Assembly: GCF_001536285.1 (NCBI RefSeq)
Contig: NZ_FAOZ01000018.1
Coordinates: 1 to 64,000, forward strand
Direction of reading: 5' to 3'
Origin: Parafrankia irregularis
Lineage (GTDB): Bacteria > Actinomycetota > Actinomycetes > Frankiales > Frankiaceae
DNA length: 64,000 nucleotides
Position 1 is the stretch's first letter. Each line of letters begins with the position of its first letter. The notes under the pieces are model-generated. The model did no database searches. It saw only the letters and a list, made by a program, of their open reading frames with translations, and had not been told where the DNA came from. The position numbers and the translations under genes were made by a program. Positions 1 to 25,666 of the stretch are shown piece after piece.

Positions 1-354
1 TCCCCCGTCAAGCACTTCATGCGCACCGCCACCCGCGACACCACCATCCGCGGCGTCCCGATCCCCGCCGGCGACGCCGTCCTGCTGTCCTACCCCTCGG
101 CCAACCGCGACGAGGACGTCTTCACCGACCCGCAGACCTTCGACGTCGGCCGCACCCCCAACAAGCACGTCGGCTTCGGCTTCGGCGCCCACTACTGCCT
201 CGGCACCCACCTCGCCCGCCTCGAAGCCCGCGCCCTCTACACCGAACTCGTCCCCCGCCTGCGCGAGGTCGAGCTCGCCGGCACCCCCGAGTACATGCAG
301 ACCGTCTTCGTCGGCGGCCCCAAACGGCTCCCGATCCGCTACAAGATCTCCTGA
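1..354 (+). CDS. Cytochrome P450, C-terminal part (cut by window edge)
   Basis: The frame is open from the first base, so this is the last ~117 residues of a P450 whose start lies outside the window. The heme-binding signature FGFGAHYCLG is intact, with the cysteine that ligates heme iron, followed by the L-helix HLARLEARAL. The preceding stretch (PSANRDEDVFTDPQTFDVGR) is typical of bacterial class I P450s, which take electrons from ferredoxin. The substrate cannot be told from this part. A 26-bp tandem duplication covers its last codons and the stop, and a strong hairpin follows. Confidence 0.95.
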   Translation, partial: SPVKHFMRTATRDTTIRGVPIPAGDAVLLSYPSANRDEDVFTDPQTFDVGRTPNKHVGFGFGAHYCLGTHLARLEARALYTELVPRLREVELAGTPEYMQTVFVGGPKRLPIRYKIS

Positions 355-383
355 CACCGATCCGGTACAAGATCTCCTGACAC
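332..383. repeat. 26-bp tandem duplication over the P450 stop codon
   Basis: Bases 332-357 and 358-383 are the same 26-mer with one mismatch (CGCTAC versus CGGTAC). The first copy carries the last codons and the TGA of the P450 gene, and the second is its untranslated echo. This looks like a recent slippage or duplication event. Confidence 0.9.
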
Positions 384-387
384 GAGA

Positions 388-417
388 CTCGCCCGGCCAC
401 TGGCGTGGCCGGGCGAG
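388..417. terminator. Hairpin between convergent P450 and liv genes
   Basis: Perfect 12-bp inverted repeat (CTCGCCCGGCCA, 388-399, with its complement at 406-417) and a 6-base loop. It lies between two genes that converge, so it probably ends transcription from both sides. There is no clear T tract, as is common in high-G+C actinomycetes. Confidence 0.75.
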
Positions 418-449
418 GGGCATTCGTGACCAGCGGCGTCCCGCTGCTG

Positions 450-3341
450 TCAGTCGTTCGACGGGCCGGACGGGCCGCCGTCGACACGGGATCCCGCGCG
501 GGTCCCCACCTTCTCCGCGACCGGTGCCGTCTCCGGTTCCGTGCCCGGCTCGGCTCCGACCTCCGCCGGCTCGACGGCCACGCCCAGGTAGGCGGAGGCG
601 AGACGGTCGGAGTCGACCGCACTGACCGGACCACTCCAGGAGATGTTCCCGACGGTGAGGAACGCGACCCGGTCGGCCAGCGCCAACGCGTCGCGGGTCT
701 TCTCCTCCGCGATGAGCAGTGCGGTGCCCCGGCCCTGCAGTTCGCGCAGCGCCGTGTAGATCTGGTCGATGACCAGCGGTGCCAGGCCCAGGGACGGTTC
801 GTCGGCGATGAGCAGGCGCGGCGGCCGCACCAGTGCCGGCGCGAGGGTGAGCATCTGCTGCTCACCACCTGACATGGCGCCGGCGAGCTGGCGACGACGC
901 TCACCGAGCACCGGGAAGGCGTCGTAGGCCGCGGTGCGCTCGTCCTCCTGCCGCAGCCAGAGCATCAGGTTCTCCTCGACCGTGAGGTCGGGGAAGATGC
1001 CCCGGCCCTCAGGTGCGAGGTAGATGCTGTCCCGCTCGCGACGCTGGGCGGGGGTTCGGGTCACGTCCGTGCCGGCGAGCATGACCGTGCCCGCGCTCGG
1101 GGCCAGCAGACCGCCGATGACGGCACACAGGCTGCTCTTGCCCGCGCCGTTGCCACCGAGCAGCGCGACCGCCTCGCCGGCGGCGACGGTGAGGTCGATG
1201 CCGTGCAGCACCTCGATCTCGCCGTAGCTCGCACGCACGCCCTGGACCCGCAGCACCACCGGGCCCGCAGGCTCCGCCGTCGTGTCAGCCACCGCGGCCG
1301 CTGTCTCGGACACTGCCGTGGCCCTGGACGGAGCCGTCGCCTCGGACACAGCCGTCACCCCCGACACAGCCGTCACCTCCGACACAGCCGTCACCTCCGA
1401 CACAGCTACCACGTCGGCGGTGCCCGCCGCCGCCCTGGAGCGTCGTCGTTTCTGGCTCGAGCGGCCGATGGCGGCCAGCGCTCCGTCCGGGTCACGAGCC
1501 AGGCCGATCGCGCCGAGGCCGAACAGCACCTGCATGAAGTAGGACGAGGCCGGGACGGCCTCGAACGCCTGCGGCGCGAGCGCGCTGACCAGGCCGGCGA
1601 GAACCGCGCCGGCCGGCCGGCGAATACTGAAGGTGACGGTCGTGGCAAGCCAGACCAGGCCGAGCAGAACGTCGTAGTCGGTGTTGGTGACCCGTCCCCG
1701 GCTGGTCGCCAGCATCACCCCGCCGAAGCCGGCGATCGCCGCCGAGATGACGAACACCAGCAGTTTCATCCGGTCGACGGCGATGCCGCTGGTACGCGCA
1801 CCGACCTCGGTGGAGCGCACCGCGAGCATCGCGCGCCCGGTACTCGACGTACGCAGCGCGTGCACCAGCCAGAGCACCAGGCCGACGAGCACGAGCATGA
1901 GGACGACGAGCCACCGCGGGTTCTCCGTGTCGACGATCCCCAGGTCGGGCGCCGGGACGGCCCAGCCGGAGCTGCCGTTGGAGATGTCGTGGATCTGGAA
2001 GAGCAGGTTCTGCCCGATGTACGCCAGCGCCAGGGTTGACAGGGCGAGCGGCAGACCGCCGAGCCGGCGGGCCGGCAGCGCCACGATCAGCCCGGTGATC
2101 GCGGCCACCGCGGTCCCGGCGAGCAGTGCGAGGAGGAACGGGACGTCATGCCCGATCAGGATGCCGGCGGTGAACGCACCCGAGAGCACGAACGCCGCCT
2201 GGGCGAGACTGACCATCCCGCCGACACCCGTGACGACCGTGAACGACATCAGCACGATCGCGGTCGCCAGCCCCTGTGCGAGCAGCCCCGCCCAGAAGTC
2301 CGTCGCACCGAACGCCGTGTAGGCCAGTAGTCCCGCGACCACGGCGGCCCACAGTGCCCGCCGGGCCCACGGCGAGGCCTCGGTCGGATCGTCCGCCGGT
2401 GGCTTCTCCTCCAGCGTGGCCCCGGCGCTGCGGCCACGTTCGGCACCGAAGTAGATCAGCAGGCCGAACAGGATGATGAACGGCACGGCGGTCGGGAAAC
2501 CGGTGATGTCCAGGTCGACGTAGCCCGCGACCAGGTTCTGGGCCACTCCCAGGAGCAGCCCGCCGCCCATCGCCACCGGGATCGAGGCGAACCGGGCCAG
2601 CACGACGGCCGGGATCGACACGAAGAGCATCGTGTTGAACGTGAAGCTGCCGAGCCCGAACATCGGCGCCAGCAGCACACCGACCAGGCCGGCGAGGCCG
2701 CAGGACAGGATCCAGGAGACGGCCGAGGCCCGGTCCGGGTCGACACCGCGCAGTGCGGCGATCTTCGGCCGGCTCACCGAGGCACGCATCTCGAGGCCGA
2801 TCCGGGTGTGCCGCACCAGCCACCACAGCAGCAGCGCGGCGAAGATCGCCGCGCCCAGCATGGCCAGCTGGTTGGTGTCGATGACGAGCCCGTCCCCGAG
2901 GGAGAAGCTCTCCTTCGGGGACGGGCCGAGACCGGGGATGAGGAACACGTCCTCGATCGCCGGGAGATCCCAGTGCGCCTTCTCGCGCAGCATCGCGGTG
3001 ACCCACAGCGCGAACGCGGGTAGCGCGATCAGCAGGCCGAGCGTTCCCACCATCCGGGCCGCGATCGACGCCTCCCGCAACGGATTGAACAGCACCCGGT
3101 GCAGCAGCCAGCCGAGCAGTGGCGCGAACACTCCGACGCAGAGGAGAGCCGCCGGCACCACCGGCATGTCCTGACCGGTGTTCAGCTGGAAGAAGAGATA
3201 GGCGGTCGCGAACGCGACCCCGCCCTGCCCGAAGTTGAAGACTCCCGACGTCTGATAGGTGAGGGTGAGCCCCGACGCCAGAATCGCGTATAAGGCGCCG
3301 GAGACCAGACCTGCGACCACCAGGCTGAGAAATTCGGTCAC
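450..3341 (-). CDS. livHMF: Fused branched-chain amino acid-type ABC transporter: LivH + LivM permeases + LivF ATPase
   Basis: A 963-residue protein joins three subunits that are usually separate. Residues ~1-300 are a LivH-type permease (start MTEFLSLVVAGLVSGALYAI). Residues ~325-640 are a LivM-type permease. Residues ~705-930 are a LivF-type ATPase with Walker A GGNGAGKSS (~residue 730), signature MSGGEQQ and Walker B LLIADEP. A low-complexity linker of VSEVTA-like hexapeptides joins permease and ATPase. The GTG start at 3341 has a GGGGGAGGAA ribosome site close upstream. livG lies 45 bp upstream on the same strand, so one operon is likely. The family imports branched amino acids, amides, urea or aromatic acids; the catabolic setting suggests an organic acid. 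No intact binding protein is adjacent. Confidence 0.92.
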   Translation of the reverse strand: MTEFLSLVVAGLVSGALYAILASGLTLTYQTSGVFNFGQGGVAFATAYLFFQLNTGQDMPVVPAALLCVGVFAPLLGWLLHRVLFNPLREASIAARMVGTLGLLIALPAFALWVTAMLREKAHWDLPAIEDVFLIPGLGPSPKESFSLGDGLVIDTNQLAMLGAAIFAALLLWWLVRHTRIGLEMRASVSRPKIAALRGVDPDRASAVSWILSCGLAGLVGVLLAPMFGLGSFTFNTMLFVSIPAVVLARFASIPVAMGGGLLLGVAQNLVAGYVDLDITGFPTAVPFIILFGLLIYFGAERGRSAGATLEEKPPADDPTEASPWARRALWAAVVAGLLAYTAFGATDFWAGLLAQGLATAIVLMSFTVVTGVGGMVSLAQAAFVLSGAFTAGILIGHDVPFLLALLAGTAVAAITGLIVALPARRLGGLPLALSTLALAYIGQNLLFQIHDISNGSSGWAVPAPDLGIVDTENPRWLVVLMLVLVGLVLWLVHALRTSSTGRAMLAVRSTEVGARTSGIAVDRMKLLVFVISAAIAGFGGVMLATSRGRVTNTDYDVLLGLVWLATTVTFSIRRPAGAVLAGLVSALAPQAFEAVPASSYFMQVLFGLGAIGLARDPDGALAAIGRSSQKRRRSRAAAGTADVVAVSEVTAVSEVTAVSGVTAVSEATAPSRATAVSETAAAVADTTAEPAGPVVLRVQGVRASYGEIEVLHGIDLTVAAGEAVALLGGNGAGKSSLCAVIGGLLAPSAGTVMLAGTDVTRTPAQRRERDSIYLAPEGRGIFPDLTVEENLMLWLRQEDERTAAYDAFPVLGERRRQLAGAMSGGEQQMLTLAPALVRPPRLLIADEPSLGLAPLVIDQIYTALRELQGRGTALLIAEEKTRDALALADRVAFLTVGNISWSGPVSAVDSDRLASAYLGVAVEPAEVGAEPGTEPETAPVAEKVGTRAGSRVDGGPSGPSND
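1333..1404. repeat. Four 18-bp tandem repeats coding the permease-ATPase linker
   Basis: Units at 1333, 1351, 1369 and 1387 share the pattern GCCGTCACCTCCGACACA. On the minus strand they read in frame as VSEVTA-like hexapeptides in the linker between LivM and LivF. The unit length is a multiple of three, so copy changes would lengthen or shorten the linker without a frameshift. Confidence 0.9.
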
Positions 3342-3386
3342 GTGTTCCTCCCCCAGTGAGTCTTTACAGCTGGCATCGCCGGCCGG

Positions 3387-4178
3387 TCAGCCAAGGTAGG
3401 CATCGCGGACTCTTTCATCACGCTGGATCTCGTCCGGGGTTCCTTCCGCAAGCACCGAGCCGAGGTTGAGAACGGAGATCCGGTCACAGATCCGCATCAC
3501 GAACCCGGCGTCGTGCTCGACCAGAAGGACCGCGCAGCCCTCGCTCCGCAGCGACTCGATGAGATCACCGAAACGCGCGGACTCCGCGGCGTCCAGGCCC
3601 GAGGTGGGCTCGTCGAGCAACAGGAGGGTCGGGCGATCCACGATCGCCCGAGCCAGCTCGACGAGTCGCTGCTGCCCCAGTGGCAGTGAACCGGAGGTGA
3701 TCCCGCGGACGGCCGTCAGGCCACACCACTCGAGGACCTCGGCGACCCGCTCCCGGCGTTCACGCTCGTGCCGCCGCCGCGCCGGCCAGCCGCACAGGTC
3801 ACCCAGGACACCCCCGCCGCCACCTCGCCATTCCAACGCTGCCAGCACGTTGTCCTCCACCGACAGCCAGCTGAAGACCTGGGCACGTTGGAAGGTCCGA
3901 CGCATGCCCATGCGGGCGCGTGCGGTCGAGGACCGGCCGGTCACGTCGGCGCCGCCGAATCGCACAGAGCCGCGGCTGGCCGGGGTGATCCCGGAGATGA
4001 CGTCGAACAGCGTCGTCTTTCCCGCACCGTTCGGCCCGATCAGGCCACGCACGGTTCCCGGTGCGACCTCAAGGTCGACGTCGGTGAGTGCATGCACGCC
4101 GCCGAATCGTTTGCTGACGCCGCCGAGCGCCAGAAGTGGGCCGTCAGCGGGGGCAGCGGGTGCCGCCGGGGTGGGCAT
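3387..4178 (-). CDS. livG: LivG-type ABC transporter ATPase
   Basis: A 263-residue ATP-binding subunit of a branched-chain amino acid-type importer. It has Walker A GPNGAGKTT (~residue 45), Walker B LLLLDEP, a switch histidine in LLVEHD and the LivG-type C-terminus. The ABC signature reads LPLGQQRL, a slight variant. I chose ATG 4178 because AGGAGG lies four bases upstream; an in-frame GTG at 4199 would add seven residues. It sits upstream of the fused LivHMF gene on the same strand, with an A+T-rich operator-like element about 185 bp upstream. Together the two genes give a complete inner-membrane importer apart from the binding protein. Confidence 0.93.
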   Translation of the reverse strand: MPTPAAPAAPADGPLLALGGVSKRFGGVHALTDVDLEVAPGTVRGLIGPNGAGKTTLFDVISGITPASRGSVRFGGADVTGRSSTARARMGMRRTFQRAQVFSWLSVEDNVLAALEWRGGGGGVLGDLCGWPARRRHERERRERVAEVLEWCGLTAVRGITSGSLPLGQQRLVELARAIVDRPTLLLLDEPTSGLDAAESARFGDLIESLRSEGCAVLLVEHDAGFVMRICDRISVLNLGSVLAEGTPDEIQRDERVRDAYLG

Positions 4179-4561
4179 GGGGCCTCCTGTGTCACGCACG
4201 AGGTGATCGATATGCGGCGAGCCGTCGGCCAGGACGGTGAACGGGACCCGTCAGGGTCGGCGACGACGACGTCCGAGCCGGGGTCAGTACGACGGCTGCC
4301 CGGCACCGGCTCCAGGCCCTCTAGCCCCGACATGTGACGACTCACACAGAAGCGTAGCCGATAGATATATATGTTTCTAGTCCGGCGTCAAACGGCGATC
4401 GCCGAACGCCCACGCGGTCGCCCCGCGCAGGCGTCGGCGCGATCCACAGAACCTGGAGGCCACGGGATTGGGTGACGTCCGGCGAACCGGGCGGCAGATG
4501 ATCCACGACGGAACGTGGCCCGCAAATGAGCTAGAGATTTAAGGTGCCAGACGACGCGGGG
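4179..4561. other. Intergenic, promoter side of liv operon
   Basis: No convincing gene is seen in these 383 bases. The stretch lies upstream of livG and downstream of the alcohol dehydrogenase. It holds the A+T-rich element listed at 4362-4379. Confidence 0.7.
4362..4379. promoter_or_regulatory. A+T-rich operator-like element (site 1)
   Basis: TAGATATATATGTTTCTA stands out in a ~70% G+C background. It resembles the elements near 36.8 and 41.65 kb (shared TATATGTTT). It could be a regulator site or a promoter -10 region for the liv operon. Confidence 0.45.
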
Positions 4562-5542
4562 TCAGGGCCGGAGGAGAATCTTCGCGCTCGCGGTGACGTT
4601 GGCGAGATCGTCGAAGGCCTCGTTCACCTCGCTGAGGCCCACCCACCGGGCGATCAGCGGCTCCGGGTCGATCTGCCCGCCGGCGAACGCGTCGACGACG
4701 GTGCGGAACTCCTCGGGGGTGTAGTAGACGGCGAAGCCGACCGAGACCTCCTTCATCAGGGCCGCGACCGACGCGAACGGGGTCGGCTCGATCGTCACGC
4801 CTGCCATCACGATCCGGCCCCCCGGCCGCGCGACGGTCACGCAGGCGTCGAGCAGCGATGCCCTGCCCGCGCACTCGGCGACGAAACTGTAGGTGCCGGC
4901 GGCGACCTCCTCGACGGAGCCGACGACCTCGGTCGCCCCGAAGGATGCCGCGGCTGACCGGCGGATGGCCACCGGGTCGACGGCGGTGATCCGCCGGGCG
5001 CCGCGTTGGCGCGCCCACGCGATCGTCGTGAGGCCCACCGTCCCGGCGCCGACGACGAGCACGTCGTCGCCTTCGGTCAGGTGCCCCGTCCGGGCGATGT
5101 GCAGGCCGACCGCGAACGGCTCCACCAGCGCGCTGTACAAGGGATCGATCCCCGGTGCCAGCGGGATGGCGGCGGCCGCGGTGACCACCGCCAGCTCCGC
5201 GAAACCGCCCCCACTGCCACCGAGCCCGACCAGGCGCACCTGCGGGCAGTGGATCACCCGGCCGGAGGCGCACCACTCGCATCTCCCGCAGGAAAGCGCG
5301 GGCAGCACCGCGACCTGGGTGCCCTCCCGCCAACCCGTCGTCTCCGGGCCGATCCCCACGACCTCCCCGCCGAACTCGTGCCCCATGATCTCCCCTGCGG
5401 GCATCGCCGCCCGCGCCTTGACGTCCGAGCCGCAGAACCCGCACGCGGTGACGCGGAGCAGGAGTTCGCCGGGGCCCGGGGACGGATCCGGGACCTCGCT
5501 GATCTCATACCGGCCCCCGGAAGCGATCACAGCCGCACGCAT
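4562..5542 (-). CDS. Zinc-dependent alcohol dehydrogenase (MDR family)
   Basis: A 326-residue medium-chain dehydrogenase that oxidises an alcohol to a ketone or aldehyde with NAD(P). Catalytic-zinc residues are seen in CGFCGSD and GHEFGGEV. The structural-zinc cysteines are in CGRCEWCASGRVIHC, and the Rossmann motif is GAGTVGLTTI. ATG 5542 is chosen because MRAAVIASGG is the usual N-terminus and GAGGTG precedes it; the frame is open further upstream but the added residues are not family-like. It lies downstream of the hydrolase and monooxygenase on the same strand, so it may oxidise the alcohol before or the hydroxy acid after ring opening. That role is inferred. Confidence 0.92.
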   Translation of the reverse strand: MRAAVIASGGRYEISEVPDPSPGPGELLLRVTACGFCGSDVKARAAMPAGEIMGHEFGGEVVGIGPETTGWREGTQVAVLPALSCGRCEWCASGRVIHCPQVRLVGLGGSGGGFAELAVVTAAAAIPLAPGIDPLYSALVEPFAVGLHIARTGHLTEGDDVLVVGAGTVGLTTIAWARQRGARRITAVDPVAIRRSAAASFGATEVVGSVEEVAAGTYSFVAECAGRASLLDACVTVARPGGRIVMAGVTIEPTPFASVAALMKEVSVGFAVYYTPEEFRTVVDAFAGGQIDPEPLIARWVGLSEVNEAFDDLANVTASAKILLRP

Positions 5543-5625
5543 GACACCTCGCTTGTTCCACGACCGGCCCACGGTCGCGTGAGATCGACGTCTGTCGTGG
5601 CCACCACAGGCAGCCGAGGAGCAGC

Positions 5626-6411
5626 TCAGGCGAGCGATTCCAGCCACGCGGTGAGAAGGGAGTTGAACTCGGCTGGACGCTCCTGGTGCAGCCAGTGGCC
5701 GGCGCCCTCCCAGGTCACCACCCGGGACCGCGGGTCCGTGAAGATCGCCTGCTCGGCGGCGGCCCGCGTCGGGTCGGCGTAGAAGGTCAGCACCGGGCAG
5801 GTCCGCCTGCGCAGGTAGGGCGCGCTGTGCGAGTGCAGCGCCATCCCGGTCGCCTGGGCCTCCAGCGCCTGGCGCAGCACGTGGTCGGCCATGCCGGCGA
5901 TACGGCGAACCTGCCAGGTGCGCAGGGCCAGGTCCCGGGCCGGGGAATCCATGCCCCCCACCAGCTGCTGGACCAGGGGAACCGGGTCGGACACCGCGAG
6001 CAGGTCGAGCAGCGGCCGGATGCCGCCGGCGATCTCGTCCGGGAGCAGGTAGGCCGGGTCGACACCGACCATGGCGGCCACCCGGTCGGGGTGTTCGACC
6101 GCCAGGCTGCCGGCGACGCTGCCACCCATCGAATGACCGACGGCGACGACCCGCTCCACCTCGAGCTGGTCGAGCAGCCCGGCGAGGTCGGCGGCGAACT
6201 GCGTGGTCGTGTAGCCGTCGGGTGGCGCGCTGGAGCGCCCGTGACCGCGGAGGTCGACGGCGATCACCCGCCGGCTGGCGGCCAGGTACGGCAGCTGCCA
6301 GCTCCAGTCATGCGAATCGGAGGTGTAGCCGTGGATGAGCAGCAGCGGCAGGTCGCCGGTGCCCTCGTCGGTGAAGAACAGCCGGACGTCTCCGACCTGT
6401 GCGAACGCCAC
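5626..6411 (-). CDS. Alpha/beta hydrolase (esterase/lactonase-like)
   Basis: A 261-residue alpha/beta hydrolase. The oxyanion motif LLIHGYTSD is near residue 27. The nucleophile serine is in GHSMGG (~residue 94), and the catalytic histidine is in EGAGHWLHQE near the C-terminus; DLRGHGRS is also typical of the fold. No signal peptide is seen, so it is cytosolic. It lies nine bases downstream of the flavin monooxygenase stop on the same strand. In known cyclic-ketone pathways such a hydrolase opens the lactone made by a Baeyer-Villiger enzyme. The role here is inferred from context. Confidence 0.9.
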   Translation of the reverse strand: MAFAQVGDVRLFFTDEGTGDLPLLLIHGYTSDSHDWSWQLPYLAASRRVIAVDLRGHGRSSAPPDGYTTTQFAADLAGLLDQLEVERVVAVGHSMGGSVAGSLAVEHPDRVAAMVGVDPAYLLPDEIAGGIRPLLDLLAVSDPVPLVQQLVGGMDSPARDLALRTWQVRRIAGMADHVLRQALEAQATGMALHSHSAPYLRRRTCPVLTFYADPTRAAAEQAIFTDPRSRVVTWEGAGHWLHQERPAEFNSLLTAWLESLA

Positions 6412-6420
6412 CGGAGGCCC

Positions 6421-8091
6421 CTAGGAGATCTTGAAGCCGGAGTAGCCGGCGGCGACGACCTGATCACACTGTTTGTGGAACTCCGGAACGCCGGCGACGT
6501 AGGTCGTGTACATCCGCTTCTTGCCCGGGACGTTGGCGCCGTTGTACCAGGAGTCGCACTTCGGGTGGAGCAGCACGCTGCCCGCCACGAGCGCCTGCAC
6601 CCCGTCGATCCACTCGCTCTGTGCCTCGGGAAGCGTCTCGATCGTCTGGTGGCCACCGCCGCGCAGGTGGGCCACGCAGTCCGCTATCCACCTGATCTGG
6701 TACTCCATGGTCGCGAGGTAGTTCGACGCCGCGGACGGGCTGCCCGGCCCCTGGATGAGGAAGAGGTTGGGGAAGCCGGCGACCCCCAGGCCCAGGTAGG
6801 CGACGGGACCCTCGTCCCGCCAGACGTCGCCCAGGACAACACCTCCCCGACCACGGACGTCGATGCGCGTCAGCGCGCCCGTGAGGGCGTCGAAGCCGGT
6901 CGCGAAGAGGATCACGTCGACCTCGTGATGGCCCTGCCCGGTCCGGATGCCGGTGGGGGTGATCTCCTCGATCGCGCCCTGGCGCAGGTCCACCAGCGTG
7001 ACGTTGTCCCGGTTGAACGTCTCGTAGTAGCCGACGTCGATGATCGGCCGCTTGCAGCCGAACGGGTAGGTCGGGGTCAGGCCGGCGGCCGTCCGCGGAT
7101 CCCGCACGATCAACGCGACCGCCTCGCCGTACAGCGCGGTCGCCAGCTCCCCCGCCTCGGGGTCGGACAGCACGTCGCTCCAGTACAGCGCTCCCCTGAC
7201 GCCGTTCTCCTCGATCGCGCGCAGCTGCTCCTCGCGCGTCGCCGTCTTCAGCGGCGGGAAACCGCCCATGTTCATGAACACGGAGAAGGCGCTCGTGCGG
7301 GCCGCGCCCACGTGGGCGACCAGCTGGGCGGCCCGGATGTCGTCGTAGTTCGCCTTGAGCTCGTCGAGCTCGCCCGGCTCGTAGGGACGGGCGGGCGAGG
7401 GCAGCGTGTAGGCGGCGGACCGCTGCAGGACGTAGAGGTGTTCCGCCTGCTCGGCGACCACCGGAATGATCTGGACGCCGGTGGAGCCGGTTCCGATCAC
7501 CGCCACCCGCCTGCCGGCGAGGTCGAAGCCCTCGCGCGGGTACTGGCTGCTGAACAGGACGGTGCCGCCGAAGGTGTCCAGGCCGGGTATGCCCGGGTCG
7601 AGCGGCGCGGAGAGGATGCCGGTGGCGGCGACGACGAACGGCGCGGTGAAGCTCTCCCCCGCCTCGGTGCGCACCGTCCACGTCGAGTCGGCCTCGTCGA
7701 AGGACATCTCGACGACCCGGGTGTCGAACTGGATGTCGCGGCGCAGGTCGAGCCGGTCCGCGACGAAGTTCAGGTAGGCCTCGATCTCCGGCTGGCCCGG
7801 CAGCACCTCGGACCAGTTCCACTCCTGCTGGAGCTCCGGGGAGAAGCTGTACGAGTACTCGATGCTCTCGATGTCACAGCGCGCACCGGGGTATCGGTTG
7901 AACAACCAGGTTCCGCCGACGCTGTCGGCGGCCTCGAGCACCCGCACCCGCAGGCCGTCGGCTCGCAGCCTGTGCAGTGCGTAGAGGCCGGCGAAGCCCG
8001 CACCCACCACGATGGCGTCATAGTGCCGGTCCGCGGCGTCCGTCAGCCGGGCGGCACCGGCCCGTGTTCCGTTCCCGTCGCTCACGGCCAC
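6421..8091 (-). CDS. Flavin-containing / Baeyer-Villiger-type monooxygenase
   Basis: A 556-residue flavoprotein with two dinucleotide folds: FAD-binding GAGFAGLYALHRL near residue 31 and NADPH-binding GTGSTGVQIIP near 185. Length and layout match cyclohexanone monooxygenase-like enzymes, which insert oxygen next to a carbonyl. The fingerprint between the two folds reads FGGTVLFSSQYP instead of FxGxxxHxxxWP: the histidine is phenylalanine and the tryptophan tyrosine, so the exact reaction is uncertain. GTG 8091 follows a GGGGG tract. It leads an operon with the hydrolase and alcohol dehydrogenase, and an A+T-rich element lies ~40 bp upstream. Confidence 0.9.
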   Translation of the reverse strand: MAVSDGNGTRAGAARLTDAADRHYDAIVVGAGFAGLYALHRLRADGLRVRVLEAADSVGGTWLFNRYPGARCDIESIEYSYSFSPELQQEWNWSEVLPGQPEIEAYLNFVADRLDLRRDIQFDTRVVEMSFDEADSTWTVRTEAGESFTAPFVVAATGILSAPLDPGIPGLDTFGGTVLFSSQYPREGFDLAGRRVAVIGTGSTGVQIIPVVAEQAEHLYVLQRSAAYTLPSPARPYEPGELDELKANYDDIRAAQLVAHVGAARTSAFSVFMNMGGFPPLKTATREEQLRAIEENGVRGALYWSDVLSDPEAGELATALYGEAVALIVRDPRTAAGLTPTYPFGCKRPIIDVGYYETFNRDNVTLVDLRQGAIEEITPTGIRTGQGHHEVDVILFATGFDALTGALTRIDVRGRGGVVLGDVWRDEGPVAYLGLGVAGFPNLFLIQGPGSPSAASNYLATMEYQIRWIADCVAHLRGGGHQTIETLPEAQSEWIDGVQALVAGSVLLHPKCDSWYNGANVPGKKRMYTTYVAGVPEFHKQCDQVVAAGYSGFKIS

Positions 8092-8130
8092 GCCCCCACG
8101 AATCGCTGATGTAAGTCGGACCCCCGCATA

Positions 8131-8234: not shown

Positions 8235-9407
8235 TCAGAGGGCCTCGATGACCATCGCGGCACCCATGCCACCGCCGGCACACATCGACACCACGCCGAG
8301 CGCGTTCCCCCGGCGGCGAAGCTCGGCGACCATGGTGACCACCATCCGCGCGCCGGTGGCCGCGATCGGGTGGCCCAGGCTCGCGCCGCTGCCGTTGATG
8401 TTCACGATCTCCGGCCGGATCCCGAGCTTGCGGATCGTGGCCACCGGGACCGAGCAGAACGCCTCGTTGACCTCGAAAAGATCGATGTCGGCGAGTGTCA
8501 GACCCGCACGGTCCAGCGCCTTCGGGATCGCGAGGGAGGGGCCGAGGCCGGTCAGCGCCGGGGCCACCCCGACCGAGGCCCACGACCGGATCCGGGCCAG
8601 CGGGCGCAGACCGTGGGCCTCGGCGTACTCGTCACTGGCCACCGTGACGGCGGCCGCCGCGTCGTTGAGACCGGCGGCGTTGCCTGCGGTGACCGTCGGG
8701 TTCGGCAGCTCAGGGTGCAGTAGCCGCAGCTGGGCCAGCCCTTCCACCGTGGTGCCGCGGCGGGGGAACTCGTCGGTGTCGAACAGCCGGGTCGAGCCGT
8801 CCGGCTGGGGCACCGGCACCGGCACGATCTGCTCGGTGAAGTACCCGCCGTCGATCGAGGCGATCGCCTGCGCGTGGCTGTACACGGCCCACTCGTCCAC
8901 GTCGAGACGGGTCAGGCCCAGCTCGCGGGCGGTGTTCTCACCGACCGTGATCGACATGTCGAAAGCCGGGGCCTCCGGGCTCTCCGGGTGCGACGCCGAC
9001 ACCCAGGTCACCGGCTGCCCGTCCGCGCCCTTGCGGGTGGTGGTCATCGCGCTGTTGCTGAGGCTCTCCGTCCCGCCGGCGATGACGACCTTGTCCATGC
9101 CGGCCCGGACGCTGCCCGCGGCGATGGCGACCGCGCTCAGCCCGCCGGCGCAGTGCTGGTTGGTGGCGACCCCGGCGATGTCGTCGAGGCCGAGCCGTAC
9201 CGCGATGTTGCGGGCGATGACCCCGCCACCCTGGTAGGCCTCGGCGAGCACCAGGCTGTCGACGTCCCGGGCCGGCACGCCGCTGCGCTCCAGCACCGCG
9301 GGGACGACGACCTCCGCGAGGTCGAAGGCGTCCAGGCTCACCAGCGATCCCTTGCGGGCTCGTCCGATCGGGGTGCGGGCGGTCGAGATGATGACTGCTT
9401 CGGTCAC
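8235..9407 (-). CDS. Thiolase (acetyl-CoA acyltransferase)
   Basis: A 390-residue thiolase-fold enzyme that cleaves 3-ketoacyl-CoA or condenses acyl-CoAs. The acylated cysteine is in NQHCAGG (~residue 86), the histidine in GHPIAATG (~350) and the second cysteine in MCAGGGMG (~376). The NEAF loop reads NEAFCSV, where NEAFA is usual. GTG 9407 is chosen because GGAGGAG lies seven bases upstream and VTEAVIISTART is the typical beginning. It is transcribed away from the acyl-CoA ligase across a shared 404-bp promoter region, and probably ends the beta-oxidation of acids activated by that ligase. Confidence 0.95.
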   Translation of the reverse strand: MTEAVIISTARTPIGRARKGSLVSLDAFDLAEVVVPAVLERSGVPARDVDSLVLAEAYQGGGVIARNIAVRLGLDDIAGVATNQHCAGGLSAVAIAAGSVRAGMDKVVIAGGTESLSNSAMTTTRKGADGQPVTWVSASHPESPEAPAFDMSITVGENTARELGLTRLDVDEWAVYSHAQAIASIDGGYFTEQIVPVPVPQPDGSTRLFDTDEFPRRGTTVEGLAQLRLLHPELPNPTVTAGNAAGLNDAAAAVTVASDEYAEAHGLRPLARIRSWASVGVAPALTGLGPSLAIPKALDRAGLTLADIDLFEVNEAFCSVPVATIRKLGIRPEIVNINGSGASLGHPIAATGARMVVTMVAELRRRGNALGVVSMCAGGGMGAAMVIEAL

Positions 9408-9593
9408 GGTGGACTCCTCCGGGAGGTTGACTGTGCCCGGGGACGCCGGACACCGACGGCGGATGGTGCGCGAACCGGGCACGGCCGGGCACCAGGCTTC
9501 GGGGGGCCGCCGGGTGCGAACTCATCACTCGCCCGAGCACTCGCCGCACCGCGGGCCGGCGCCCGGTACCCGACCTCACACCACCGAGCCCGT

Positions 9594-9611: not shown

Positions 9612-9693
9612 AACGTGTGGCGGGTTCGATGCATCGCGATGCTCCTGCTGCTCCGTTGGTCCACCGCAGGTGCGCGCCCGCGATCCGACCACC

Positions 9694-9711
9694 GATACAT
9701 CTGGATGTTTT
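9694..9711. promoter_or_regulatory. GATACATCT element, palindromic (site 4)
   Basis: GATACATCTGGATGTTTT contains the inverted repeat ACATC-TG-GATGT. It lies about 100 bp upstream of the acyl-CoA ligase start and is the clearest dyad of this sequence family in the divergent region. Confidence 0.55.
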
Positions 9712-9811
9712 GGGGTCAATGAGGTACAACCCATCGTGGGAAGGTCCGTCGACCTGCGGTTCCGCGGCCGGAACGGACAGGGACCCACGCGCGAAGGGCG
9801 GTTCTCCCGCG

Positions 9812-11530
9812 ATGACCCGACATAGCCTGGCCGGCTCCGGCATCGCGCCGGTCTACCGCGACGATCCGCGGCTGGCGCCCCTCGTCGGCCCCGGTGGGCC
9901 GTTCGAGGTCGATGACGTCGAGATCCACGGCGTCCCGTTACGCGACTTCGTCCGCGGACCGCGCACCGTCAACGACATCTTCCTGATGGGCGCCGCCCAC
10001 CAGGCTCTGATCCACACGGTCTACCAGGGTGAGCGGCAGACCTTCGCCCAAACCCGGCTGCAGGCGCGGGCGGTGGCGGCGCAGCTGCGGCTGGTCCACG
10101 GCGTGCGCCCCGGCGACCGGGTCGGCATCGCCATGCGCAACCTGCCGGAGTACGTCACGTCGTTCTGGGGCGCCCTGCTCGTCGGCGCCATCGTCACGCC
10201 GCTGAACGCGTGGTGGACCGCACCGGAACTCGACTACGCGTTACGCGACGCCGCGGTGTCGGTGCTGTTCGCGGACGAAGAGCGCCTGAGGCGGGTGCGC
10301 GCGGCCGGCAGGCCCGACGGCCTCACGCTCGTCGGCGTGCGTTCCGACCTGGGTGACGTCCCGTTCGCCGAGCTCACCGCCGCGGAGCCGATCGACGACG
10401 ACTCCGTCGCCCGGCTGGACCGCGACGACCCGGTGACGCTGCTGTTCACCTCCGGCACCACCGGACGACCCAAGGGCGCTGTCAGCACGAACCGGGCGAT
10501 GACCGCCAACATCTGGAACATGGCCTTCGCGAACCTGCGTGAAGGCGTCGTCGCCGGCCGGGCGCCGCGCGAGAACCGCCAGCCCGCGACGCTCTCGACC
10601 GGGCCGATGTTCCACATCGGCGGTGTCACCACCATCATCTCCAGTCCGCTCGGCGGCGCCAAGATCGTGATGATGCGCCGGTGGGACGTCGAGGAGGCCC
10701 TGCGCCTCGCCGCCGCGGAGCAGGTGACCGCGCTCGGCGGTGTCCCAGCCGTCGCGCGGCAGATACTCGAGCACCCGCGGACCCCCTCGCTCGCCGAGCA
10801 CGTCCGAGGTTTCTCGATCGGCGGTGCCGCCGTTCCCCCCGACCTCGTCGCGCGTGCCGTCGAAGTGCTCGGCCCCGACGTCCAGGTCTTCAACGGCTAC
10901 GGTCTCACCGAGACGACCTCCGCCGTGGTGACCAACGTCGGCGTCGAGTTCCAGGCGCATCCGGACTGCGTCGGCCGGCCGAACCTCACCGCGGACGTGC
11001 GGGTGCTCGGCGCGGACGGCGAGCCGCTCCAGACCGGCGGGACCGGCGAGGTCTGCTTCCGCTCCCCGCAGGTGGCCAGGGGCTACTGGAACGACGAGGC
11101 CGCCACCGCGACGTCGTTCCAGGACGGCTGGTTCCGCTCGGGTGACGTCGGCTTCCTCGACGACGAGGGCTTCCTGCACGTCGTCGACCGGCGCAAGGAC
11201 GTGGTGATCCGGGGCGGCGAGAACGTCTACTGCACCGAGGTCGAGGCGGTCCTGCACGAGCATCCGGGCGTGGCCGAGGTGACCGTCGTCGGGCTGGACG
11301 AGCCGATGTTGGGCGAGCGGGTCTGCGCGGTGGTCGTCCCGCGGCCCGGTGCCACACCCGGCATCGAGGAGCTGCGGGCCTTCGCGGCCGACCGGCTGGC
11401 CGTCTTCAAATGCCCCGAGGCGCTGTACGTCATCGCCGAGCTGCCGAAGACCGCCACCGGCAAGGTGGCCAAGAACGACGTCCGTGCACTGATCACGGAC
11501 GACACCGACAGGATCGTCCGTGCCTGGTGA
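9812..11530 (+). CDS. Acyl-CoA synthetase (AMP-forming, FadD-like)
   Basis: A 572-residue AMP-binding ligase that activates a carboxylic acid to its CoA thioester through an acyl-adenylate. The P-loop-like motif FTSGTTGRPKG lies near residue 214, followed by GYGLTETTS, RSGDVGFLDDEGFLHVVDR and the catalytic lysine in PKTATGKVAKND (~550). ATG 9812 is chosen because MTRHSLAGSG begins the family-like part, with GAAGGGCGG upstream; the frame is open much further upstream but looks non-coding. It is followed 94 bp later by the aldehyde dehydrogenase on the same strand. The substrate is unknown; a dicarboxylic or alicyclic acid fits the context. Confidence 0.94.
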   Translation: MTRHSLAGSGIAPVYRDDPRLAPLVGPGGPFEVDDVEIHGVPLRDFVRGPRTVNDIFLMGAAHQALIHTVYQGERQTFAQTRLQARAVAAQLRLVHGVRPGDRVGIAMRNLPEYVTSFWGALLVGAIVTPLNAWWTAPELDYALRDAAVSVLFADEERLRRVRAAGRPDGLTLVGVRSDLGDVPFAELTAAEPIDDDSVARLDRDDPVTLLFTSGTTGRPKGAVSTNRAMTANIWNMAFANLREGVVAGRAPRENRQPATLSTGPMFHIGGVTTIISSPLGGAKIVMMRRWDVEEALRLAAAEQVTALGGVPAVARQILEHPRTPSLAEHVRGFSIGGAAVPPDLVARAVEVLGPDVQVFNGYGLTETTSAVVTNVGVEFQAHPDCVGRPNLTADVRVLGADGEPLQTGGTGEVCFRSPQVARGYWNDEAATATSFQDGWFRSGDVGFLDDEGFLHVVDRRKDVVIRGGENVYCTEVEAVLHEHPGVAEVTVVGLDEPMLGERVCAVVVPRPGATPGIEELRAFAADRLAVFKCPEALYVIAELPKTATGKVAKNDVRALITDDTDRIVRAW

Positions 11531-11624: not shown

Positions 11625-13091
11625 GTGTCCGAGCACCGCCTGTTAATTGACGGAAAGCTTGTCGAGGCCGAGGGCGGCCGGGTGTTCGACAACATCAACC
11701 CGGCCACGGAGGAGGTGCTGGGAGTCACCGCGGACGCCTCCCGTGCCGACATGGAACGGGCCGTCGGTGCCGCCCGCGCCGCGTTCGACCAGACCGAGTG
11801 GTCGCGTGACCCCGGGGCCCGCAAGCGGGGCCTGCTGCAGTTGCAGGCCGCGATCGAGGGCGAGGTCGAGGAACTGCGGGCCGAGCTCGTCGCGGAGGTG
11901 GGCTGCCCGGTCATCACCACCTACGGCCCGCAGCTCGACGCACCCCTGCGGGAGGCGCTGCGCTGGCCCGCCGAGCAGATCGAGTCGTTCCCGTGGACGC
12001 GCTCGCTGCCGGACCACGACGCGTTCGGCATGGGCTTCCCCTCCGCCCGCGAGGTCTGGAAGGAGCCCGTCGGCGTCGTCGGGGTGATCGTGCCCTGGAA
12101 CTTCCCCCTCGAGATCGCGCTGAACAAGCTCGGCCCCATCCTCGCGATGGGTAACACCTGCGTGCTCAAGCCCGCCCCGGACACACCCTGGAACACGACC
12201 CGGCTGGGCCGCCTGATCGCTGAGAAGACCGACATCCCGCCGGGCGTCGTGAACATCGTCGCCTCCTCCGACCACCTGGTCGGCGAGGTGCTCTCGACCT
12301 CGCCGGACGTCGACATGGTCGCCTTCACCGGCTCGACGGCAACCGGGCGACGGGTCATGCAGGCCGCGGCCGCCACGGTGAAGCCGACGTTCCTCGAGCT
12401 CGGCGGCAAGTCGGTGAACCTCGTCCTGGAGGACGCCGACTTCACGAAGGCGATCCCCACCGCCGCCATGGTCTGCATGCACGCCGGGCAGGGATGCGCC
12501 ATGCCGACCCGGCTGCTCGTCCCGAACTCCCGCTACGACGAGGCGATCGAGCTCGCCAAGGTCGCGTTCGAGGGCGTGAAGTACGGCGACCCGACCGACC
12601 CGTCGGTGCTCCAGGGCCCGCAGGTCTCACGCCGCCAGCAGGAGCGGGTCCTCGGCTACCTCGACTCCGGCCGCCAGCAGGGCGCCCGCGTTGTTCTGGG
12701 CGGCGGGGTACCGAAGGACCTCGACCGCGGCTACTTCGTCGAACCGACCCTGTTCGCCGACGTCACACCCGACATGACCATCGCCCAGGAGGAGATCTTC
12801 GGCCCGGTCCTCGTCGTCATCGGCTTCGACGACGATGACGACGCCGTCCGCATCGCCAACAACTCCGTCTACGGCCTGTCCGGAATGATCACCTCCGGCG
12901 ACCTGGACCGGGCCAAGGCCGTCGCCCGGCGGATCCGCACCGGAACCCTCGGCATCAACGGCGGCATGTGGTACGGCGCGGACGCCCCCTTCGGCGGTTA
13001 CAAGCAGTCCGGGATCGGCCGCCAGTGCGGCCTCGAGGGCCTGGAGATCTTCACCGAGACCAAGACCGTGGGGTGGCCGGCAGGCAGGTGA
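11625..13091 (+). CDS. Aldehyde dehydrogenase (NAD-dependent)
   Basis: A 488-residue aldehyde dehydrogenase that oxidises an aldehyde to an acid. It has the cofactor motif VIVPWNFPLEIALN, the general-base glutamate in LELGGKS (~residue 259) and the nucleophile in GQGCAMP (~290). The C-terminal PFGGYKQSGIGRQ motif is also typical. The GTG start at 11625 is preceded by GGAGGG. It lies downstream of the acyl-CoA ligase, so the acid it makes could be activated next. With the alcohol dehydrogenase and monooxygenase at 4.5-8 kb it supplies the oxidation steps of a cyclic-ketone-type pathway. The substrate is inferred only. Confidence 0.95.
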   Translation: MSEHRLLIDGKLVEAEGGRVFDNINPATEEVLGVTADASRADMERAVGAARAAFDQTEWSRDPGARKRGLLQLQAAIEGEVEELRAELVAEVGCPVITTYGPQLDAPLREALRWPAEQIESFPWTRSLPDHDAFGMGFPSAREVWKEPVGVVGVIVPWNFPLEIALNKLGPILAMGNTCVLKPAPDTPWNTTRLGRLIAEKTDIPPGVVNIVASSDHLVGEVLSTSPDVDMVAFTGSTATGRRVMQAAAATVKPTFLELGGKSVNLVLEDADFTKAIPTAAMVCMHAGQGCAMPTRLLVPNSRYDEAIELAKVAFEGVKYGDPTDPSVLQGPQVSRRQQERVLGYLDSGRQQGARVVLGGGVPKDLDRGYFVEPTLFADVTPDMTIAQEEIFGPVLVVIGFDDDDDAVRIANNSVYGLSGMITSGDLDRAKAVARRIRTGTLGINGGMWYGADAPFGGYKQSGIGRQCGLEGLEIFTETKTVGWPAGR

Positions 13092-24829: not shown

Positions 24830-25666
24830 GCATTCTGCATCGAGTGCGTGCAGACGTACTGGTCCTACATCGCCAAGCTCGCCGGAGCCACGAAGATCGC
24901 GGCGATCGGGCTCGGCGTGAATCCGGCGTCCAAGAACTGCGCGAACGGCGTCGTCAAATCCATCGAGAAGCAGGGTGGAGCCTTCGGTCAGAAGGTCGTC
25001 TACCTCAACGACGGCCTGCCCTTCGGCCTCCCGAACGGCGTCGGCCCCGAGGTGACGGCCATGAAGAAGGCCGGCGTCCAGCTCGTGATCGGCTGCGTCG
25101 ACTCCAATTCCATGAAGACCTTCTCCCAGGAGATGCGGCGCCAGGGCGTCGGAGACGTCACCATGGTCCACCAGAACACCTACGATCAGAGGTTCGTCGC
25201 CGAGAGCGGCGATCTCTTCGAAGGCGACTACGTACTGGCCCGGTTCCGCCCCTCCGAGGCCGACGCCGGCTCCTCCGCACTGACGAACTTCTTCACCTGG
25301 ATGGACGGGGCCAAGGCCGAGCACACTGAATACGCCATGCTCGGCTGGATCGACGCCGATCTCGCCTATCAGGGGATCAAGGCAGCCGGCGAATCCTTCA
25401 CCCGTGAGTCCGTCATCACCGCCACGAACCAACTGACCGCCTACAGCGCGGACGGCCTCATCGACCCCATCGACTGGAGCCGTCAACATGTACCGCCCAC
25501 GGACGAAGATCCCGTCACCCACGGCAACAAGCAGGAGTGCATCTCTCTCGTCCAGGTCCACGGCGGAAAGTTCAAAGCCGTCGGCGATCCCGCGAAGCCG
25601 TTCATCTGCTGGCCGGTGACGAAGGACCGCGCCTGGTCCGAGCCCACCTTCGTCGAGCTGAAGTAA
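24830..25666 (+). pseudogene. 5'-truncated ABC substrate-binding protein (Leu/Ile/Val-binding type)
   Basis: From about 24830 the frame encodes ~278 residues of a type-I periplasmic binding protein (AFCIECVQTYWSYIAKLAGA, then GVQLVIGCVDSN and LGWIDADLAYQGI). The signal peptide, lipobox and roughly the first third of the usual ~420 residues are missing. Upstream, the frame stays open back to the TetR stop but the residues are not family-like. GTG 24848 could in principle start a product, but it would lack one lobe and an export signal. A good terminator hairpin follows. It is probably the relic of a binding protein for an importer such as the Liv system at 0.5-4.2 kb. Confidence 0.75.

Follow-up and report, generated by a model that had tools for sequence, protein, structure and literature searches.

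The window, a stretch of 64,000 nucleotides of the Parafrankia irregularis genome (contig NZ_FAOZ01000018.1), carries a gene in which both permeases and one ATPase of a Liv-type importer are joined in a single reading frame, with the second ATPase, LivG, encoded separately (Table 1). The fusion is real and conserved. Within a known family of importers, the LivH-LivM-LivF (H-M-F) chain represents a minority form, and its likely mechanism is an ordinary one. Together with LivG it likely forms the translocator of an ABC importer of the Liv/HAAT family, for which an alicyclic, terpenoid or steroid-like acid is the probable cargo. The original prediction that LivH, LivM and LivF share one frame of 963 residues, with LivG apart, was right, and the same arrangement recurs in independent assemblies.

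Domain organisation of the fusion gene and livG

Along the chain the domains follow in the order LivH, LivM, a disordered linker bearing repeats and a LivF-type ATPase, and the GTG start codon is preceded by a GGAGG-like ribosome binding site. Pfam detected BPD_transp_2 in two stretches (176.8 bits against a cut-off of 26.8), as expected of two permease domains, and ABC_tran at residues 712-850. The best two NCBIfam models for the ATPase part were UrtE (169.8 bits) and LivF (168.9 bits), with UrtD at 86.9 bits, and those for the separate ORF at 3387-4199 were UrtD (210.7 bits) and LivG (208.8 bits). The transporter therefore has two distinct ATPases, one LivF-type and one LivG-type, although all of these scores fall under the curated equivalog cut-offs. 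The E. coli-type LivF equivalog (NF008626) in particular requires 441 bits, so that the fused domain is LivF-like rather than a member of that equivalog. Our own profiles gave the same assignment of H, M, F and G, but they were built from E. coli and window seeds, and the NCBIfam result is the independent one. By both, the fused ATPase is of LivF and not LivG type, with an own-profile margin of 373 bits (partly self-seeded) and of 176 bits in another run.

Table 1. Features of the fusion locus and its surroundings, with positions numbered along the window
Feature	Position	Strand	Basis or remark
Cytochrome P450, 3' end, cut by contig start	1..354	+	Pfam
Perfect 11-bp inverted repeat, 4-base loop	390..415		between fusion gene and convergent P450
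LivH-LivM-LivF fusion gene	450..3341	-	963 aa, GTG start, stop 450-452
C-terminal tail, residues 926-963	453..566	-	predicted disorder
LivF-type ATPase domain, residues ~693-925	567..1265	-	Pfam, NCBIfam, motifs
M-F linker, residues ~641-692, low complexity	1266..1421	-	predicted disorder 645-690, pLDDT <50
18-bp tandem repeat, 5.6 copies	1305..1406	-	VSEVTA-like hexapeptides inside linker
LivM-type permease half, residues ~325-640	1422..2369	-	second BPD_transp_2 stretch; own M profile
LivH-type permease half, residues ~1-302	2436..3341	-	Pfam BPD_transp_2 8-295; model helices 2-304
LivG, separate	3387..4199	-	270 aa from GTG; Pfam, NCBIfam, own profile
Zn alcohol dehydrogenase	4562-5647	-
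Alpha/beta hydrolase	5626-6411	-
Flavin monooxygenase, Baeyer-Villiger type	6421-8091	-	best NCBIfam match, far under cut-off
Thiolase	8235-9482	-
Acyl-CoA ligase, divergent	9617-11530	+
Aldehyde dehydrogenase, divergent	11625-13091	+

The length of an ORF is poor proof of a gene here, as illustrated by an ORF of 807 aa opposite 5686-8109 that overlies other genes. Since long ORFs come cheaply in sequence of approximately 70% GC, homology was used as the test of reality. In-frame homology, with identities of 40-82%, extended over the whole chain in the 14 and 16 relatives aligned. Altogether 37 distinct H-M-F proteins were collected, that of the window included; because they were gathered by similarity to the query, counts within this set are not frequencies.

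LivG lies upstream of the fusion and ends 45 bases short of its start codon; a common transcript is probable. A likelier start for LivG than the GTG is the ATG at 4178, which stands behind AGGAGG. Scans of positions 300-4700 for promoters and for terminators with a T run found none; the inverted repeat downstream of the fusion gene is a possible terminator, judged by its sequence, without a T run.

Distribution and descent of the fused architecture

When 35 genomes of the order were searched, 16 proved to contain relatives at E≤1e-100. The 31 rows obtained represent 30 loci, one of which contributes two rows. H-M-F occupies a single frame at 28 of these loci; of the other two, one is interrupted by a run of N and the second is truly split. 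Three of the fused rows were flagged with a stop, and all three domains still lie within their ORFs. A class-wide draw, in which seven candidates were scored per genome as against 24 in the order-wide search, recovered the clade in 6 of 118 genomes, two of these outside the family. Members are also present in Streptomyces, Sphaerisporangium, Nonomuraea and Embleya, and at least five H-M-F loci (L084-L088) are among the 80 loci listed from a scan of named genomes. LivG precedes the fusion in the close relatives of the window and follows it in the Streptomyces members.

Quick trees, with SH-aLRT as the measure of support, were built from 81 rows for the HM part and from 85 rows for the F domain, and both place all 37 fused proteins in one clade. 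This clade comprises 39 rows (SH-aLRT 100 for HM and 89 for F), the remaining ones being the N-broken locus L072 and the truly split locus L003/L062 (G000:C8), a paralog from the same genome whose HM and F genes overlap by GTGA. The exact position of L003 is unsure, as it is grouped with L078, a long branch. Outside the clade, but near it, are loci with a fused HM and separate F and G, namely L007, L054 and L057 in the tree of HM and L054 in that of F. These trees would be most simply explained by a single fusion of F to HM, followed by one fission in L062, whose separate F begins with a repeat-rich stretch similar to the linker repeat. H-M-G proteins occur in at least two other groups of the tree and H-M-F-G proteins in another.

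These data bear directly on whether a lost base or stop codon, through an error of sequencing or assembly, has joined what are really separate livH, livM and livF genes. The paralog L062, with HM and F in separate genes, speaks for such an artefact, but the fused frame is repeated in 37 distinct proteins from many assemblies, and the split locus falls inside the fused clade in both trees, which indicates a secondary fission even though it is paired with the long branch L078. Relatives with separate genes, coupled with an assembly error in the window, were what could have undone the original prediction; the sole true split found was this one. Given the recurrence across genomes and the tree position of the split paralog, assembly error was rejected as extremely improbable, and the fusion is taken to be genuine.

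A fusion of all three components had also been predicted to be rare, which stands for LivF only and fails in general. Permease domains of this Pfam family form 25 clusters in the P. irregularis genome. Three of these (L202-L204) were dropped, since the ORF next to each carries two ATPase domains, an arrangement seen in sugar importers. The 22 Liv systems left comprise three with all genes separate, seven with a fused HM and separate G and F, ten with H-M-G and a separate F, and two with H-M-F and a separate G. A permease-permease-ATPase fusion is thus found in 12 of 22 systems, ten times with LivG and twice with LivF, and this count rejects rarity for three-part Liv fusions as such. Both plasmids examined of Rhodococcus jostii RHA1 likewise encode H-M-G with a separate F. 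Three further loci (L046, L051 and L059) have frames of 1269-1555 aa in which all four Liv core domains form one H-M-F-G chain. No title on an H-M-F or H-M-G fusion was found in the literature searched, a scope that left most subscription journals outside. PatDABC of RHA1 was considered as a precedent and dropped, as its permeases are given as PatB and PatC and its ATPase as PatA (PMC3983516).

The E. coli K-12 LivHMGF system (NC_000913.3) has the same four core domains, but encodes them in four separate genes in the order H-M-G-F, in contrast to the one H-M-F chain with G upstream in the window. The H-M-G system on pRHL2 of R. jostii RHA1 (WP_011600149.1, WP_050787660.1) also consists of a permease-permease-ATPase chain with the second ATPase separate; there, however, the fused ATPase is LivG, and its parts belong to other clades of the HM and F trees. 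That system has an adjacent receptor and thiolase and crotonase genes nearby. The H-M-F-G chains are of the same family and likewise begin with the permeases, but contain both ATPases and form another clade. Fusion of an ATPase to the permeases of Liv importers has apparently come about by at least two routes, through LivG, which is common in actinobacteria, and through LivF in this clade. H-M-F and H-M-G are mirror images, and their comparison bears on which of two unequal ATPases tolerates tethering without loss of transport, as well as on whether tethering stops the swapping of subunits among at least 20 parallel Liv systems.

Linker, ATPase motifs and the predicted translocator

The linkers between M and F in the 37 proteins measure 6-140 aa between profile edges (median 36) and are rich in Ala (31%) and Pro (14%). 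The longest, in L088 (3986-7147), consists of 140 aa with a repeated GSA-rich unit, and several other linkers have short repeats of their own. A structure model of the fusion had a mean pLDDT of 78.6 and a pTM of 0.76. Stretches of at least three residues with pLDDT below 50 were confined to residues 303-315, 645-690 and 924-963, that is, to the H-M joint, the M-F linker and the tail. The ATPase part of the model matches 1ji0 of Thermotoga (Z 29.2); the VIA-align rows span nearly only this part and are silent on the permease fold. By sequence, the permease part had no match in the PDB at E≤1, with either a single sequence or a profile. FhuB of the ferrichrome importer FhuCDB has two permease halves in one chain, which is not known to include an ATPase. 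It was the best structural match (PDB 7lb8; E 7.7e-6, TM 0.51, rmsd 8.9) of a model of the HM part only, which is itself of low confidence (mean pLDDT 67.9).

The LivF domain of the window carries the ATPase motifs expected, with Walker A GGNGAGKSS, signature MSGGEQQ and Walker B LLIADEP, and its H-loop reads AEEK, without His. Within the clade the signature is [LM]SGGEQQ in 37 of 37 LivF domains, followed by LAP in at least 33 of 37 proteins (17 of 17 in the alignment), and the H-loop is [ED]EK in 35 of 37. Of the 33 partner LivG proteins, all have the H-loop EH[DN] and at least 29 a signature of the non-canonical form L-[PS]-x-G; these counts were taken from the nine commonest forms of each motif. 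E. coli is alike in this respect, its LivF having the signature MSGGEQQ and VEQN in an H-loop without His, and its LivG having EHD and LAYG. Since LivF is without the H-loop His and LivG possesses it, one canonical and one degenerate ATP site are predicted from the motifs.

One fused chain and one LivG would make up a full machine of two permeases and two ATPases. A Peripla_BP_6-type lipoprotein receptor would load this machine; H and M would form the channel, and the flexible linker of variable length would tether LivF to the cytoplasmic C-terminus of M, where it could pair with free LivG. The canonical ATP site would be composed of the Walker motifs and H-loop His of LivG against the LSGGE signature of LivF, as in E. 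coli LivFG, and the second site would be degenerate. With LivF tethered, the ratio of H, M and F would be fixed at 1:1:1 as a consequence of the fusion, as had been proposed, and the fused LivF would be kept from passing to other Liv systems in the same cell.

A different fate of the chain would be its cleavage within the linker into HM and F after synthesis, the fusion then serving as a way to equal amounts and nothing more. The linker is hypervariable (6-140 aa) and predicted to be disordered, and the L062 paralog manages without fusion, its separate F beginning with a similar repeat. On the other hand, no cleavage motif common to the 37 linkers was apparent by eye, and 37 of the 39 members of the clade, all but L062 and the N-broken locus, have an uninterrupted frame. 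Cleavage is accordingly considered unlikely, and an intact tether is preferred.

The further proposal that the fusion may restrict which ATPase can dock fits the co-divergence of LivG with the fused chain, for which a Mantel r of 0.93 was obtained over 33 loci with none of 2000 permutations as high (r 0.95 for the fused F, 33 loci). Co-inheritance of the operon, or linkage alone, would give the same result, so that the proposal is compatible with the data without being singled out by them.

Neighbouring genes, cargo and receptor

The enzymes encoded next to the transporter in the window (Table 1) constitute a set typical of alicyclic ketone breakdown. At 12 other loci of the clade, 64 of 65 selected neighbour genes, called by a simple GC3 rule, were scanned. 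The most frequent families were AMP-binding (5), P450 (5), short-chain dehydrogenase (4) and TetR (4), and no family exceeded five. A Thiolase_C_1 protein adjoins LivG in all five orthologous loci of genus g6 (L065, L066, L067, L070 and L071), and a family III CoA-transferase lies near LivG in six of six loci, the same five and L068, within the stretch fetched. KshA-type Rieske oxygenases (3-ketosteroid 9alpha-hydroxylase family), which are known from steroid breakdown, are encoded near the fused transporter in L063 (14645-15817) and L065 (3679-4791), the two loci in which they were sought.

Judged from the neighbouring genes only, the cargo is probably an alicyclic, terpenoid or steroid-like acid and not a branched-chain amino acid. 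Import of branched-chain amino acids would suit the family membership, with BPD_transp_2 and LivF- and LivG-like ATPases. However, the neighbours are oxidative and acyl-CoA enzymes, the NCBIfam cut-offs for LivF, LivG and Urt were not reached, and 22 Liv systems in one genome are too many for a single class of substrate. A genuine branched-chain amino acid importer is thus improbable, and an acid of the kinds named is favoured.

An adjacent Peripla_BP_6 receptor gene, usual though not strictly required for such importers, was absent within 21 kb on one side of the pair, and on the other the contig ends after approximately 450 bases. The system may be incomplete or may borrow a receptor. The nearest receptor gene, at 24848-25666 and 21.5 kb from the pair, is truncated, with the first third of the domain missing, and is perhaps a remnant; it spans profile positions 123-326 of 343, reaches 33.9 bits with the clade-receptor profile and is unlikely to be the receptor of this system. 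In the closest ortholog (84%) a receptor gene lies directly downstream.

A receptor match was obtained in 15 of the 22 clade contexts L061-L082. The seven others (L065-L068, L070, L071 and L080) had none with the receptor profile save a 16.9-bit match in L067, in 15-19 kb fetched for each of the six loci other than L080. Around the seven loci there are 27 gene calls of 330-560 aa, of which 24 (21 of 24 for the six) were scanned with Pfam without any Peripla_BP_6 being found; the three unscanned calls resemble CoA ligases.

The P. irregularis genome encodes 70 Peripla_BP_6 receptors above the cut-off against 22 Liv translocators, and 49 of the 70 have no permease core within 5 kb. The receptor of the closest ortholog is related to eight receptors of this genome, seven at 46-69% identity and the eighth at 30%; six of those seven were without permease genes in contexts of 18 kb. 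In the receptor tree, L193 is represented by its second receptor, another receptor of that locus being absent. The excess of receptors and the orphans among them support, without proving, the sharing of receptors, and make sharing by one translocator directly testable. It is conceivable, if rather doubtful, that the H-M-F chain and LivG act as a shared hub that has no receptor of its own and is served by several dispersed lipoprotein receptors, each in its own catabolic cluster, LivF being tethered so that the motor is not exchanged with approximately 20 parallel Liv systems.

A receptor-P450 module was also considered. Between the 70 receptors and 59 P450 places of the genome, five pairs were observed within 1.5 kb (1.9 expected), five within 3 kb (3.2 expected) and ten within 5 kb (4.8 expected). 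The expectations assume uniform placement and disregard contig ends, and the enrichment is too weak to claim. The first 358 bases of the contig are identical to the end of contig C41 in reversed orientation (99.5% identity over 365), and the repeated P450 3' end probably broke the assembly at the contig start. Three Peripla_BP_6 receptors are encoded on C41 within 19 kb of the matching end. A 26-bp tandem repeat spans the P450 stop codon at positions 331-383 of the window.
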